IMG/VR virus record: IMGVR_UViG_3300006033_000063
Span: 1 to 36,985 of that record
Length of the DNA stretch: 36,985 nucleotides
Source of the DNA: a virus
Direction: 5' to 3' (one strand)
Shown: positions 43 to 11,723 of the stretch, piece after piece
How positions within the stretch are numbered: the first letter of the stretch is position 1
Layout of the letters: each line of letters opens with the position of its first letter
Translations under genes and position numbers: made by a program
The notes under the pieces: generated by a model
Told to the model about the DNA's origin: nothing
What the model saw: the letters and a program-made list of their open reading frames with translations, nothing else
Database searches by the model: none

Positions 43-1650
<1,608 letters not shown>

Positions 1651-4065: not shown

Positions 4066-4826
4066 TCCGCACCGCGCACCGCGCGGCCGGCGGGCACCAG
4101 CGCGAACACTTCACCGCGTCCGCTGCCGTTACGCGCGGCAGCCATTGCAGCCGCTTGGGCCGCTTCAGCCTTGCTGAAGATGCGCATCGGGCGCTTGGGC
4201 GCGCGCACCAGGTAGCAAGCTGCGGTGTAGCGATCGTCGCCCGACAGGAGCGAGGCGCCGCGCATGGCGTCGCGCTGCAGTTCTTCGACCTGCTCTTGGA
4301 GGGCGGCGCGCGCAATGCGCTCGTGGGCGAGCTCGGCTTCGGCTACATCCAACTGTTGGCGCAGATCTGAGACGGCCTGCGTCAGATCCATGATCATCAC
4401 ACCCTGCTCAAGCAGCTTGTGATCCGTTTCGGTCGGCTCGTCCACCGCAACCGGCGCCGCCGTGGAGACGTCGGCAGGCACTTCCGGTGCGGGTTCAGGT
4501 TGGACGGCAGCGCCCTCGGCGGAAAGCGAAGGGAGAGCCGATGCGCTGCTGCCGGTGTTTTTCGTCACCGGCTGGACGTTCTTCAGGTTGTTGCCCTGCT
4601 TGGTCGCTGCACCTTCGGCAAGACGGGCTTTGCCGGCTTCGGTCAGGTGATACCCCGGCTGGCCGGTCACGTCGTCACGCGCCATTTCCAGCAGGCCGGA
4701 CTTCTTGCAGTCGATCACGGACCATTTCACCTTCTGGCTGTCGTGATCGATGGCGTCGCAGATTTCGGTCATGGGCGCGCCCGGGTTCTTCGACACGGCG
4801 CGCAGGATTTCAAAACGGAGGTTCAT
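4047..4826 (-). CDS. Winged-helix DNA-binding protein with coiled coil
   Basis: The chosen start (4826) gives 259 aa and overlaps the upstream stop by ATGA, with an AGGGA sequence 6 bases before it; a longer frame from 4997 lies wholly inside the upstream gene. Residues 1-70 look like a winged-helix domain of the MarR/replication-regulator type (MTEICDAIDHDSQKVKWSVI, then GYHLTEAGKARL). A Pro/Ala-rich linker follows, then a coiled coil (about 135-185), then an Ala-rich C-terminal region. It may be a replication regulator or helicase-loading partner; that role is inferred from position next to the helicase only. Confidence 0.75.
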   Translation of the reverse strand: MNLRFEILRAVSKNPGAPMTEICDAIDHDSQKVKWSVIDCKKSGLLEMARDDVTGQPGYHLTEAGKARLAEGAATKQGNNLKNVQPVTKNTGSSASALPSLSAEGAAVQPEPAPEVPADVSTAAPVAVDEPTETDHKLLEQGVMIMDLTQAVSDLRQQLDVAEAELAHERIARAALQEQVEELQRDAMRGASLLSGDDRYTAACYLVRAPKRPMRIFSKAEAAQAAAMAAARNGSGRGEVFALVPAGRAVRGAEWRAQV

Positions 4827-6901: not shown

Positions 6902-7591
6902 TCAGAAAGGGGTGCCGGTGATCTTGGCGTGGATGTGCGCGAGGTCAGGCGGCTCGAACATGTCGAGCGCGCCAGAGCGGTCCTTGGCCTCGTAATTGAA
7001 GTCGCGCGCGGTTTGCAGCACGCGGTAGGGGTTGCCTTCGGGGTCGCGTTCGATGCGCAGGCTGAACACTTCGTCGAAGAAGTAACCGATGCCTTGCTTG
7101 AGGGTGTTGCCCGGCAGGCTGGGGTAATAGAGCATTGCCCCGGTCTGCTCGTCCTTGGCGCGCTCTTGCTTGCAGCTGAAGTACACGTTGCGGCCTGGCA
7201 GGTCGCGGAAGGCGCGCACCAGCTCGCCCATGCGCTCGGCCAGTGCGCCGTAGGCCTGGCGCGGGTCCTTGGCGCCTTTCTTCTCTGCGGCCAGGCACAC
7301 TTCGCCGATCTCGCTGATCGAGTCCAGGCACACCCACTTGAACTGCTGGCCCTCGCCCGATTCGGTGACGAACTTGTAGGCCTCGTGCACGTCATCGATG
7401 CTCTTGACCTCGATGACGGGGATGTCCTTGTCGCGCAGGGACAGCAGACCGGCCTCGGCACTGATGATGACCGTGGGTGCCGCCGTGGTCCCGCACAGCA
7501 CCGTTTTGCCAGCGCCTGCCGGGCCATGCACCAGGATCTTGATGCCGTTGTCGCGCACCGACTGCTTGGTGCTCGTGAGCTTGATTGCCAT
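6902..7591 (-). CDS. Sak4-like RecA-fold ATPase (phage recombination)
   Basis: The 229-aa product has Walker A GPAGAGKT (about 23-30) and Walker B WVCLDSISEI, and the short single-domain RecA core of phage AAA_24/Sak4 proteins, which act as single-strand annealing or strand-exchange recombinases with a partner SSB. The DUF669 and nuclease genes directly downstream complete a recombination set. The ATG overlaps the previous stop as TGATG, with GAGGTG 5 bases before it. A longer frame reaching 7720 is rejected because it overlaps the upstream gene. Confidence 0.88.
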   Translation of the reverse strand: MAIKLTSTKQSVRDNGIKILVHGPAGAGKTVLCGTTAAPTVIISAEAGLLSLRDKDIPVIEVKSIDDVHEAYKFVTESGEGQQFKWVCLDSISEIGEVCLAAEKKGAKDPRQAYGALAERMGELVRAFRDLPGRNVYFSCKQERAKDEQTGAMLYYPSLPGNTLKQGIGYFFDEVFSLRIERDPEGNPYRVLQTARDFNYEAKDRSGALDMFEPPDLAHIHAKITGTPF

Positions 7592-8151: not shown

Positions 8152-8415
8152 TCAGCCGGAGCCGTCGCCGGAGCCGTAGCCGTCGCCGGAGCCGTCGCCG
8201 TCGCCGGAGCCGTAGCCGTCGCCGGAGCCGGAGCCGTCGCCGTCGCCGGAGCCGTAGCCGTCGCCGGAGCCGTCGCCGTAGCCGGAGCCGGAGCCGTAGC
8301 CGGAGCCGGAGCCGTAGCCGGAGCCGGAGCCGTAGCCGGAGCCGGAGCCGTAGCCGGAGCCGTAGCCGTCGCCGGAGCCGTCGCCGGAGCCGGAGCCGTA
8401 GCCGGAGCCGTAGCC
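8152..8415. repeat. Hexanucleotide tandem repeat array
   Basis: About 43 tandem 6-bp units on the plus strand, each GTAGCC, GGAGCC or GTCGCC, run without interruption for roughly 260 bp. Units differ mainly in the second and third bases. Because the unit is 6 bp, gain or loss of units keeps the reading frame of the repeat gene. The array is a likely site of slippage and of assembly error. Confidence 0.9.
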
Positions 8416-8430
8416 GGTTACTTCCGCCAT
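8152..8430 (-). CDS. (Gly-X)43 repeat protein, X = Tyr, Ser or Asp
   Basis: After a MAEVT leader the 92-aa protein consists of 43 Gly-X dipeptides plus a final Gly. X is Ser 21 times, Tyr 11 times and Asp 11 times. All repeat Gly codons are GGC and X codons are TAC, TCC or GAC, so the DNA is an array of near-identical hexamers. It overlaps the upstream DUF6948-like gene by 13 bases. I recall similar Gly-Tyr-Ser-Asp proteins beside such genes in other phages, which suggests selection rather than chance. It is low-complexity and could phase-separate or bind nucleic acid; that is speculation. It could instead be a non-translated repeat. Confidence 0.6.
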   Translation of the reverse strand: MAEVTGYGSGYGSGSGDGSGDGYGSGYGSGSGYGSGSGYGSGSGYGSGSGYGDGSGDGYGSGDGDGSGSGDGYGSGDGDGSGDGYGSGDGSG

Positions 8431-8833: not shown

Positions 8834-8863
8834 ATTCTACGACTGTAGATTTTTACGTGTCAA
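8834..8863 (-). promoter_or_regulatory. Leftward early promoter PL
   Basis: Read leftward, a perfect TTGACA -35 (8863..8858), an 18-bp spacer (8857..8840) and a TAGAAT -10 (8839..8834) form a strong sigma70 promoter. Predicted start near 8827. The spacing and -10 are identical to the rightward promoter PR. The operator at 8836..8849 covers the -10, so the CI-like repressor should block it. Confidence 0.85.
8836..8849. promoter_or_regulatory. Operator OL for the CI-like repressor
   Basis: The dyad TCTACGACTGTAGA has two half-sites separated by 2 bp. On the minus strand it reads TCTACAGTCGTAGAAT, differing by one base from the PR operator TCTACAGTTGTAGAAT. A further partial dyad (CGTAGA/ACTACA) lies at 8868..8879, just upstream of the -35. 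Confidence 0.8.
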
Positions 8864-8884
8864 CAACCGTAGAACTACAGGCGC

Positions 8885-8907
8885 AAAAAAACCGCCTCGT
8901 GGGCGGC
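8885..8907 (-). terminator. Leftward intrinsic terminator, distal of a tandem pair
   Basis: On the minus strand CCGCC and GGCGG arms close an 8-nt loop and are followed by seven T residues. It is the second stop signal for transcription coming from the repressor/restriction-modification operon, just before PL. Confidence 0.85.
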
Positions 8908-8913
8908 GGCCGT

Positions 8914-8937
8914 AAAAAAGCCCGCGCGCGGCGGGCT
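8914..8937 (-). terminator. Leftward intrinsic terminator, proximal of a tandem pair
   Basis: On the minus strand the sequence AAGCCCGC pairs with GCGGGCTT around a short CGCGC loop, followed by a T-run. It starts about 25 bases after the methyltransferase stop. With the second hairpin at 8885..8907 it insulates PL from repressor-operon readthrough. Confidence 0.88.
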
Positions 8938-8961
8938 TGGTATGGAATGAAGCTGGGCCGG

Positions 8962-9597
8962 CTAGGCGGTCACTTCAGCCGCTGATTGCGAATGGTTGCT
9001 GTAGGTCGGCCAGTCGGGCATGTAGTCGTCGGCTTGGTTCCCCCAGGTCGCCCATCCTTCGCGGCTGCCGCGCGCGAATAGCTCGAGGTAATCACCTGGG
9101 CTGCACGACTCGATCAGCTCATATTGCTCGTCTGGCTTGCGCGAGTGCTCGCGCTTCATCGTCTTGATGATGTTCACCTGCCGGCGCCCAGGCGCAAGCG
9201 TGCGCGCATTCTTGCCGCGCACACCGAAGAGCAGCAGCTCAGTGGTGTTGCGGAAGTAGAATCCGACGCCACGCCCGTCCGGCCCGCCGTCCTTCCTGAT
9301 CTTGTGCCAGACGATGTTGCTCTTGTACTGGAAGCCCCAAGCCTGCATGACCTGCAGCCCCTCGGGCAGTAGCGCATTAGGCACCCACAGGTAAAGGTGC
9401 GCGGGGTCGTCGGCAAGCTGCGCGACGGGCAGGGCAAGGATGTCTGGCAGCATCATTGTGCCGTAGCGGTTCAGGCGCTTGTGCTCGGGCGCCATCTTGC
9501 CGGTGCGGTTCTGGAACTGCCACGGCGGGTCAGCCAGGATTGTGCGGAATTTGCGCCCGCCGACGCGGTCGAGCAGGTCTTGCGAGGCGTCATTCAT
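8962..9597 (-). CDS. MT-A70 family N6-adenine DNA methyltransferase
   Basis: The 211-aa protein carries the catalytic DPPW motif (23-26) of the MT-A70 family after a short N-terminus, then LYLWVPNALLPEGLQVMQAWGFQYKSNIVWHK and a C-terminal SAM-binding segment (PGDYLELFARG). It would transfer a methyl group from SAM to N6 of adenine in phage and host DNA. Its start overlaps the restriction endonuclease stop by 8 bases, the usual R-M pairing. It is last in the repressor operon, before two terminators. The target sequence cannot be read from the gene. Confidence 0.9.
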   Translation of the reverse strand: MNDASQDLLDRVGGRKFRTILADPPWQFQNRTGKMAPEHKRLNRYGTMMLPDILALPVAQLADDPAHLYLWVPNALLPEGLQVMQAWGFQYKSNIVWHKIRKDGGPDGRGVGFYFRNTTELLLFGVRGKNARTLAPGRRQVNIIKTMKREHSRKPDEQYELIESCSPGDYLELFARGSREGWATWGNQADDYMPDWPTYSNHSQSAAEVTA

Positions 9598-10249
9598 GTT
9601 GGTCGTCCTTGATCAGCTTCGGAGTGATGCCCAGCACCAGCACCGGGCAGCCGCCGCTGCGGCCAGCGTTGATCCGGTAGAGCAGCTTGCCCATCCAGGT
9701 GGTGCTGGCGCCGTACTTCGGCATGATACCGAGTTGGCGGAACACTTCGTTCATTGATTCGCTTCGCGTGAGCAGCACGGCCGCGCTGATGATGCCTGCC
9801 TCGTGGAACGCGCGGAAAGCGTACAGGTCGCGGTCGAAGGTCTGGTCCTTACTGTTCCACTCCATGTCGAACGCGACGGCGTTCTTCACGAAGTCGATCT
9901 TGTGACCATCCATGAAGCGCTCGAGCCGCCGCTCGTGACGCACGATTCCGGTGTCGGCGCGCGTCTCCATCGTGACCAGCAGGTCGCCATAGATGCGCGA
10001 CTCGAACCAGCCGGACGGGCGCAGCAAACCTGCCATTCGGCGCGGTATCGCTGACTCGTTTCCTCCTGGCGCAAGCAGGTCGGCGCGCGTGATGTGGAAG
10101 GCTTCGAGCGCATGAACCAGCTCGGCCATCTCGTCCGGGCAGCCCGCCGCAAGCACCTCGGCTGCATGGCGGAAATTGTGAACCTCGTAGCGCTGCAGCA
10201 CCGGCTCGGGCAGGTACCGCTCAATCACTTCTTGCCATCCTTTCTCCAT
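9590..10249 (-). CDS. BglII/BstYI-type restriction endonuclease
   Basis: The 219-aa product matches the RE_BglII family. The catalytic region KIDFVKNAVAFDMEWNSKDQ has Asp119 and an Asp128-x-Glu130 pair aligned to the Asp-Glu-x-Gln active site of BglII/BstYI, followed by TFDRDLYAFRAFHEAG and the conserved TTWMGKL...GGCPVLVLGITPKL end. It should cut unmethylated DNA. It starts 7 bases after the CI stop and overlaps the methyltransferase gene, so it is probably expressed from the repressor promoter. No strong ribosome site precedes it, which fits low expression of a toxic nuclease. Specificity is unknown; an AGATCT-like target is only a guess from the family. Confidence 0.85.
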   Translation of the reverse strand: MEKGWQEVIERYLPEPVLQRYEVHNFRHAAEVLAAGCPDEMAELVHALEAFHITRADLLAPGGNESAIPRRMAGLLRPSGWFESRIYGDLLVTMETRADTGIVRHERRLERFMDGHKIDFVKNAVAFDMEWNSKDQTFDRDLYAFRAFHEAGIISAAVLLTRSESMNEVFRQLGIMPKYGASTTWMGKLLYRINAGRSGGCPVLVLGITPKLIKDDQHE

Positions 10250-10256
10250 GTACGGT

Positions 10257-10889
10257 TCATCGATACCGTTTCACTGCCTCGCGCACCACGCCCACGATGC
10301 GGCTGTGCCCGAGCGGCTTGATCGGGTAGCGCGGGTTGAGCGGCTTCAGGTACAGGTCGGCACCGTCCCTCACGAGCTGCTTGAACGTGGCCTCGTCATC
10401 GCCATTCTTGGCGATCACGTAGTCGCCAGGGTGGGCGTCCATCTCGGGCTCGACGACCAGGATGGTGCCGGGCGCAAACTCGGGCTCCATCGAATCGCCC
10501 TCGACGCGCAGCGCAAAGGTATGTGCCTGCACCGACACGCTGGTGTCGATCCACTCGAAGCCTTCGCCCGGATGCAGCAGATCGGCCGCGTGCGACCAGT
10601 CTCCAGCCTGCACCCATGAGATCAGCGGCACGCGGTGGCGTCGCTCGGGCGCCGCGCTCACGTTCGAGGGCTCGTGCAGGGGTGGGGTGGCGGCAGCCGC
10701 TCCCGACTCCAACTCTTCAACGGATAGCCCGAATGCGCGCGCCAACGCAGTCGCGTACTGCGAGCGTTTGCTGTCGCGCTTTTCAAGCGCGTTGATCGTG
10801 CCGACTTCGACGCCAGACCTTACGGAAAGGTCTTCCATCGTCCAGCCGTTTCGCTTGCGCAGCGCCTCGACGTTTTTTCCCAGTGCCAT
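10257..10889 (-). CDS. cI: LexA-like CI phage repressor
   Basis: This 210-aa protein maintains lysogeny. Residues 1-60 form an XRE helix-turn-helix (MEDLSVRSGVEVGTINALEKRD). Residues 85-210 are an S24 peptidase domain with an Ala95-Gly96 cleavage site (SWVQAGDW), nucleophile Ser133 in EGDSMEP and Lys170 in EATFK. It should self-cleave on RecA filaments, making the prophage SOS-inducible. It is divergent from the cro-like gene and is followed by the restriction-modification genes. The start codon sits 6 bases after a -10-like element, so the mRNA may be leaderless, as for lambda cI. Confidence 0.93.
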   Translation of the reverse strand: MALGKNVEALRKRNGWTMEDLSVRSGVEVGTINALEKRDSKRSQYATALARAFGLSVEELESGAAAATPPLHEPSNVSAAPERRHRVPLISWVQAGDWSHAADLLHPGEGFEWIDTSVSVQAHTFALRVEGDSMEPEFAPGTILVVEPEMDAHPGDYVIAKNGDDEATFKQLVRDGADLYLKPLNPRYPIKPLGHSRIVGVVREAVKRYR

Positions 10890-10895
10890 AGCCGA

Positions 10896-10924
10896 AAACT
10901 AAACAGTTGTAGAGCAGCAGGCAA
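10896..10924 (-). promoter_or_regulatory. Possible repressor promoter PRM
   Basis: Read leftward, TTGCCT (10924..10919), a 17-bp spacer and TAGTTT (10901..10896) form a weak promoter whose start would fall at or next to the CI ATG. It overlaps the degenerate operator at 10900..10913, so repressor binding could tune it. The hexamers are poor, as is common for activated PRM promoters. Confidence 0.5.
10900..10913. promoter_or_regulatory. Degenerate operator OR near the CI start
   Basis: TAAACAGTTGTAGA matches the 14-bp operator TCTACAGTTGTAGA at 12 of 14 positions, with the right half-site perfect. It lies in the CI promoter region. Confidence 0.65.
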
Positions 10925-10933
10925 ACACAGACG

Positions 10934-10963
10934 TTGAAATTCCAACATCTACAGTTGTAGAAT
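10934..10963 (+). promoter_or_regulatory. Rightward early promoter PR
   Basis: TTGAAA (10934..10939), an 18-bp spacer and TAGAAT (10958..10963) match PL in spacing and -10. The predicted start, about 7 bases after the -10, falls on the A of the cro-like ATG at 10970, so the transcript is predicted leaderless. No Shine-Dalgarno is present. Confidence 0.8.
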
Positions 10964-10970
10964 CTCTACA
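10948..10970. promoter_or_regulatory. Operator OR1 with a third half-site
   Basis: TCTACA (10948..10953) and TGTAGA (10956..10961) form a dyad with a 2-bp spacer over the PR spacer and -10. A third half-site TCTACA at 10965..10970 makes an overlapping dyad with a 3-bp spacer and ends at the start codon. The alternative pairing could let CI and Cro-like proteins use the half-sites differently. Confidence 0.8.
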
Positions 10971-11212
10971 TGGATCAGCTCATTAAAGCCCTCTCTGTAG
11001 TTGGCGGCCCGGCAAAGCTGGCGGCAACCCTTGGCGTGTCCGTTCAGGCGGTTTGCTTCTGGCGCGATGGGGCTCGCCGCATTCCGGCTGAACACTGCCC
11101 CGCCATCGAACGCGCTACCGCCGGCTCCGTGCGCTGCGAAGACCTGCGCCCGGACGTGGATTGGGGTTACCTCCGCGGCACCGCGCCCGCCCACCACCAC
11201 GAGGCGGCGTGA
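10970..11212 (+). CDS. Cro/YdaS-like transcriptional regulator
   Basis: The 80-aa product has a helix-turn-helix typical of Cro/YdaS regulators (GGPAKLAATLGVSVQAVCFWRDGARRIPAEHCPAIERAT, about 12-50). It is transcribed divergently from CI and would repress the repressor promoter to favour lytic growth. The ATG is at the predicted PR start and lacks a ribosome site, so leaderless translation is likely. Confidence 0.88.
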   Translation: MDQLIKALSVVGGPAKLAATLGVSVQAVCFWRDGARRIPAEHCPAIERATAGSVRCEDLRPDVDWGYLRGTAPAHHHEAA

Positions 11213-11405: not shown

Positions 11406-11541
11406 AAGGCACGCCGACCTCGATGGATTCGACGAGCAGGTATTGCACCGGCTCGTTCTGGAATACGGCCGTTCGGGTGTGCGCCGCGAGCAGCGCGCGG
11501 ACACAGGGCTCCAGCGCCGCCGACAAGACGACTGACTTCAT
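11284..11541 (-). CDS. Convergent small gene, 85 aa, unknown
   Basis: This ORF runs against the PR operon. It has a good AAGGGGA-type ribosome site about 5 bases before the ATG, coding-like use of G/C third positions and a plausible protein composition (MKSVVLSAALEPCVRALLAAH; VQYLLVESIEVGVPFTTLSLPDAHLRLELP), so I regard it as real. It overlaps the 63-aa gene on the other strand by 122 bases, so the two transcripts would be complementary there. No domain recognised. Confidence 0.55.
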   Translation of the reverse strand: MKSVVLSAALEPCVRALLAAHTRTAVFQNEPVQYLLVESIEVGVPFTTLSLPDAHLRLELPTHGIAAVLSGEGVRQMGFASAAAP

Positions 11542-11723
11542 GGCTTCCCCTTTGTGAAGGATGGTGATGTGAGAACCAACATCCTACCTGCATTGGGGAA
11601 GCCGCCCGTTTCCATGGCGACATCATCGTCGTCCCCGCTCGCGAGTCGGTATAGCCCGCGTGTTGCGCCTTCGCCGATGGCCAGTAATCGGCGACCCACC
11701 CTCTGACAACCTTTGACGCTGCC
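11542..11723. other. Intergenic region, no gene seen
   Basis: These 182 bases separate the convergent 85-aa gene from the ribbon-helix-helix gene. They should contain the promoter of the leftward gene, and a TAGGAT -10-like element occurs on the minus strand, but I see no convincing -35. No hairpin terminator or repeat was found. Confidence 0.4.

Follow-up and report, generated by a model that had tools for sequence, protein, structure and literature searches.

A BglII/BstYI-type restriction endonuclease and an MT-A70 family adenine methyltransferase are encoded directly behind the CI-type repressor of a temperate phage, and together they probably constitute a Type II restriction-modification (R-M) system that is co-expressed with the repressor during lysogeny, restricts unmodified phage, and sits as a promoterless cassette in an accessory slot of this lambda/P22-like phage. 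The DNA analysed, hereafter the window, comprises the 36,985 bp of IMG/VR virus record IMGVR_UViG_3300006033_000063.

Architecture of the immunity region

The phage is judged to be temperate because it carries a large serine integrase, and the P22-like genes for the portal, the terminase and the major head protein that are also present in the window, taken together with this integrase, indicate a temperate podovirus-like phage. As an initial annotation had described, the repressor, nuclease and methyltransferase genes are co-directional, lying consecutively and head to tail on the minus strand and followed by two terminators. The features on which the analysis draws are as follows.

76 to 1650, minus strand: large serine integrase (phrog_95 integrase, 1.1e-86)
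8834 to 8848, minus strand: putative operator CTACAGTCGTAGAAT over the -10 box of the leftward promoter (15-mer repeat)
8834 to 8863, minus strand: PL-like promoter TTGACA-18-TAGAAT, leftward, beyond the terminators (11 of 12)
8861 to 8872: further operator-like site overlapping the -35 of the PL-like promoter (by operator similarity)
8890 to 8911, minus strand: second terminator, 7-bp stem, U7 tail (-12.3 kcal/mol)
8918 to 8938, minus strand: first terminator, 8-bp stem, U6 tail (fold -14.3 kcal/mol, z -2.58)
8962 to 9597, minus strand: MT-A70 family adenine methyltransferase, 211 aa, catalytic Asp-Pro-Pro-Trp at residues 23-26
9590 to 10249, minus strand: BglII/BstYI-type restriction endonuclease, 219 aa from ATG 10249, probably 212 aa from GTG 10228
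10257 to 10889, minus strand: CI-type repressor, 210 aa, HTH and S24 autoprotease domain (Pfam, phrog_4)
10901 to 10912, minus strand: weaker operator-like site CTACAACTGTTT adjoining the CI start (2 mismatches)
10934 to 10963, plus strand: PR-like promoter TTGAAA-18-TAGAAT, rightward, on the cro side (consensus scan, 10 of 12)
10949 to 10963, plus strand: putative operator CTACAGTTGTAGAAT over the -10 box of the rightward promoter (15-mer repeat)
10970 to 11212, plus strand: Cro/YdaS-type regulator, divergent from CI (Pfam, phrog_35)

Read from its sequence, the region appears to follow the plan of the lambda immunity region. The repressor matches Peptidase_S24 (2.6e-26), HTH_3 (2.2e-07) and the phrog_4 transcriptional repressor (1.7e-42), with about 35% identity to the CI of phage 434, and the divergent regulator matches YdaS_toxin (8.1e-26), P22_Cro (5.1e-08) and the phrog_35 transcriptional repressor. 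An identical 15-mer, CTACAGTYGTAGAAT, lies at equal offset over the -10 box of both early promoters and is found in the window in these two copies only (10949-10963 and 8834-8848), with 0.01 expected by chance; CI would bind at these shared, putative operators. Upstream of the CI ATG there is no Shine-Dalgarno, and no clear consensus marks a CI promoter. The two terminators proposed earlier for the end of the operon were recovered as stem-loop structures with U-runs, the first of them (8918 to 8938) by folding, although a pattern scan had missed it.

Between positions 7000 and 12500 the only sigma70-like promoters are two of early type, and both are directed away from the R-M pair, the PL-like promoter reading into recombination genes (DUF6948, a Sak4-like annealing protein and a Cas4-like exonuclease). 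Leftward transcription through CI is thus the only evident route for expression of the pair. The leftward early operon also encodes, at 8152-8430 on the minus strand, a 92-aa protein that consists almost entirely of Gly/Ser/Tyr/Asp repeats (GSGYGSGDG), its gene being a run of short DNA repeats.

The nuclease and the methyltransferase

The family assignments made for the two enzymes in the initial annotation are upheld by matches to full-length profiles. The nuclease matches Endonuc-BglII (PF09195, 3.3e-49, profile positions 1-163 of 163), with no match to any model in PHROGs, NCBIfam or PADLOC, and the methyltransferase matches MT-A70 (PF05063, 5.7e-32, positions 1-172 of 172) as well as phrog_359 (3.5e-62) and PADLOC MTase_II (4.8e-91). 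The nuclease more likely starts at GTG 10228 than at the listed ATG 10249, because the GTG has the better Shine-Dalgarno (-7.8 versus -3.0 kcal/mol) and because similarity to the related copy in L002, part of a 14.5-kb phage contig, begins there; in L002 the corresponding start codon is a TTG, shortly preceded by an in-frame stop. The 7 bases reported to separate CI from the nuclease therefore hold for the listed ATG, but the distance from the CI stop becomes 28 bases with the likelier start.

A profile built from the nuclease alignment matches BstYI (4.1e-05), whereas a phmmer search of PDB sequences with the nuclease sequence alone returned no match. An AlphaFold2 model computed from a 54-sequence alignment (pLDDT 94.1) is predicted to have a BstYI/BamHI-like fold, with Foldseek matches to BstYI (1vrr, E 7.1e-09, TM 0.57/0.61) and BamHI (1bhm, 5.0e-05) at TM-scores that are moderate. 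The nuclease thus shares the whole Pfam domain of the BstYI/BglII family, and BstYI is its best match of solved structure, but the two are only 17-20% identical and the nuclease described here is partnered with an MT-A70 methyltransferase. Alignment to BstYI pairs Asp119 with Asp, Asp/Glu128 with Glu, and Glu130 with Gln; BamHI, unlike BstYI, likewise has Glu at the last of these positions. Together with His116, Asn132, Lys134, Arg140, Arg162 and Thr184, these three positions are kept in 128 of 128 relatives, an invariance that is partly a selection effect, the relatives having been collected with peptide patterns that span nuclease residues 130-142 and 179-186; His116, Asp119, residue 128 and Arg162 lie outside this bias, and Arg140 is in part freer of it. 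The recognition site was also sought through site avoidance, but GATC, RGATCY, AGATCT and other candidates all occur near Markov expectation and gave no signal (for RGATCY, 33 sites in the window versus 34.8 expected).

The methyltransferase gene overlaps that of the nuclease by 8 bases (ATGAATGA), in agreement with the earlier description, and a consensus scan, which is a weak test in GC-rich DNA, found no internal promoter for it. In the 128 relatives Asp23, Pro24 and Trp26 are invariant, and the Asp-Pro-Pro-Trp motif is complete except for one residue of one sequence. A translational bias putting the methyltransferase first was considered but finds no support in the Shine-Dalgarno energies, as its AAGGA (-5.1) is weaker than the site of the nuclease (-7.8). 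With the nuclease first in order and behind the stronger Shine-Dalgarno, methylation before cutting would not obviously be favoured in a newly lysogenised cell, and the non-ATG start of the nuclease would compensate only weakly.

Conservation of the pair

Among approximately 139 distinct loci in viral contigs, genomes, phages and plasmids, 129 have an MT-A70 gene within 1 kb of the nuclease. The order of the two genes varies, being mostly nuclease-first tandem, often convergent, and sometimes methyltransferase first, and the two proteins co-diverge (Mantel r 0.39 versus a shuffled maximum of 0.14, 128 pairs). Retention of the pairing through rearranged gene order, together with correlated divergence, argues for a functional R-M pair, and the lasting linkage of two enzymes with separate genes fits a Type II system. 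Seven of the 10 nuclease loci that lack an adjacent MT-A70 gene are from Azospirillum (L117, L128, L134, L138, L142, L143 and L144), and these nucleases may use another kind of methyltransferase. Carriage of the nuclease is about 2% of the sampled genomes of one class, with 7 matches besides the centre genome in 369, the two class-level surveys having sampled identical genomes. Two loci deserve separate mention: in Nitratiruptor phage NrS-3 (L011, 4486-5073) the product of NrS3_08, labelled 'methyltransferase' in GenBank, is a BglII-type nuclease and the next gene is the methyltransferase, and in L027 (5016-5687) a nuclease gene split into two frames lies in a phage lysogeny module with a repressor, an M78 peptidase and an integrase.

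Solitary methyltransferases are far commoner in phages than solitary nucleases or complete systems (PMC4176335), and it could be supposed that the pair serves mainly for anti-restriction, the methyltransferase guarding phage DNA from host R-M systems while the nuclease is inactive or vestigial. This is very unlikely, given that the nuclease has a dN/dS of 0.042 between the window and L002, keeps its active-site residues, and stays beside the methyltransferase across rearrangements. The methyltransferase has a dN/dS of 0.031 in the same comparison, and the reading of the two genes as a working R-M pair is favoured because catalytic residues are conserved, purifying selection on both genes is strong, and the pairing itself is conserved.

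A probable promoterless cassette

Members of the family also occur on plasmids, on chromosomes and in phages away from repressor operons, so a location behind CI is atypical. The pair recurs in L002, with 95% and 98% protein identity, directly behind a different repressor. This repressor is a HTH_26/HTH_3 protein lacking an S24 domain, and its gene diverges from a Cro-like gene that has a perfect TTGACA-16-TATAAT promoter, with a CII-like gene lying beyond. In the other relatives, no repressor-like gene was found on the same strand in the 100 bp upstream. DNA similarity between the window and L002 in this region (88.8%) extends from 10227 to 8981 only and ends at both gene ends. Because similarity is limited to the two coding sequences, the shared unit includes neither promoter nor terminator, and the nuclease and methyltransferase thus appear to form a promoterless cassette. 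The correspondence may reflect two insertions, or one acquisition after which the repressor was exchanged, and whichever the origin, the pair would depend on whichever repressor transcript precedes it.

Over the consensus promoter of the Cro-like gene, L002 has a palindrome, TTATACGATCGCGTATAA (4650-4667), that differs from the window operator, so the two phages are probably of different immunity type. Both phages have a conserved element, GGTTCTCACRTCACSMTCCTTCRCAAAGGGG, in front of small genes (window 11537-11606; L002 2990-3057 and 3339-3386), and in an exact scan of viral contigs it was found elsewhere only in L002's own contig, a distribution that may point to a common host or gene pool.

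A broader generalization, that a promoterless Type II R-M cassette plugs in behind different repressors and that the immunity repressor takes over its control, is possible but still somewhat doubtful. If true, the repressor would replace the dedicated promoters or controller (C) proteins of ordinary R-M systems, and restriction would be tied to lysogeny and SOS induction.

Proposed expression and function in the lysogen

Expression of the pair together with the repressor, as the initial annotation had proposed, is supported by sequence evidence all of which fits: the operon is co-directional, no promoter was found between the genes, and the early promoters are directed away. In the lysogen, CI would shut the two early promoters through the shared operators and drive its own operon, such that nuclease and methyltransferase are made together with it. 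The methyltransferase would then protect host and prophage DNA, the nuclease would cut unmethylated incoming DNA, and the prophage, being already methylated at induction, would carry its own self-immunity with the pair. Restriction in the lysogen, stabilisation of the prophage and pre-methylated progeny, all suggested previously, can reasonably be inferred, with stabilisation by post-segregational killing the least supported of the three. The model predicts that restriction sets in once lysogeny is established and declines after induction, and dependence on the repressor operon would illustrate how a potentially lethal nuclease can be tolerated by the phage that encodes it.

The occurrence of related pairs in phages outside repressor operons would also suit a weapon of lytic growth, in which the nuclease degrades host or competitor DNA while the methyltransferase protects phage DNA, a model already put forward for the EcoRII module of phage KL3 (PMC3091744). 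Placement of the pair in the CI operon, with both early promoters pointing elsewhere, makes such a role improbable here, and the host chromosome of a lysogen would already be methylated. A different emphasis is that the pair is mainly an addiction module that stabilises the prophage by post-segregational killing, with restriction of other phages incidental. Type II R-M systems can indeed stabilise their carrier elements (discussed in PMC4176335), and linkage to the repressor means that loss of the prophage stops both proteins, but prophages that are integrated are already rather stable, and nothing in the sequence indicates addiction; a mainly addictive role is unlikely, and since addiction is compatible with restriction it is not strictly an alternative to a lysogen-expressed R-M system.

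Comparison with known systems

The putative R-M pair is placed where lambda has rexAB, on the same strand, directly after cI and before the leftward early promoter. An accessory hotspot has been described between the repressor and N, and this slot holds rexAB or bstA, the latter read from the cI promoter with a terminator at its end (PMC7067206, PMC8585504). Many of approximately 47 related CI genes with room downstream carry other small genes in the slot, and in none of them is it occupied by an R-M system. The pair shares with lambda rexAB and Salmonella BTP1 bstA its position directly after the repressor, from which it would likewise defend the lysogen, but the proteins are unrelated: RexAB and BstA are abortive-infection systems, whereas here a DNA cutter is combined with a methylase, and whereas bstA self-immunity acts via the DNA element aba, here it would come from methylation. 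The pair would thus extend the known defences of the rex slot to DNA restriction. Pseudomonas putida prophage P1 has a RexAB-type operon together with a Cro/CI-family repressor (PMC12894663), similar in that defence genes share one operon with the repressor, but different in that they are not R-M genes. Conversely, the EcoRII/Vsr module of Burkholderia phage KL3 is an endonuclease/methylase pair in a temperate phage, but it belongs to other enzyme families, has a lytic-cycle role according to its authors' prediction, and is not described as repressor-linked (PMC3091744). The open-licence literature yielded no description of a Type II R-M pair that shares an operon with a repressor. Each part of the arrangement is of a known kind; the R-M pair would be a new occupant of the accessory slot known from rexAB and bstA.
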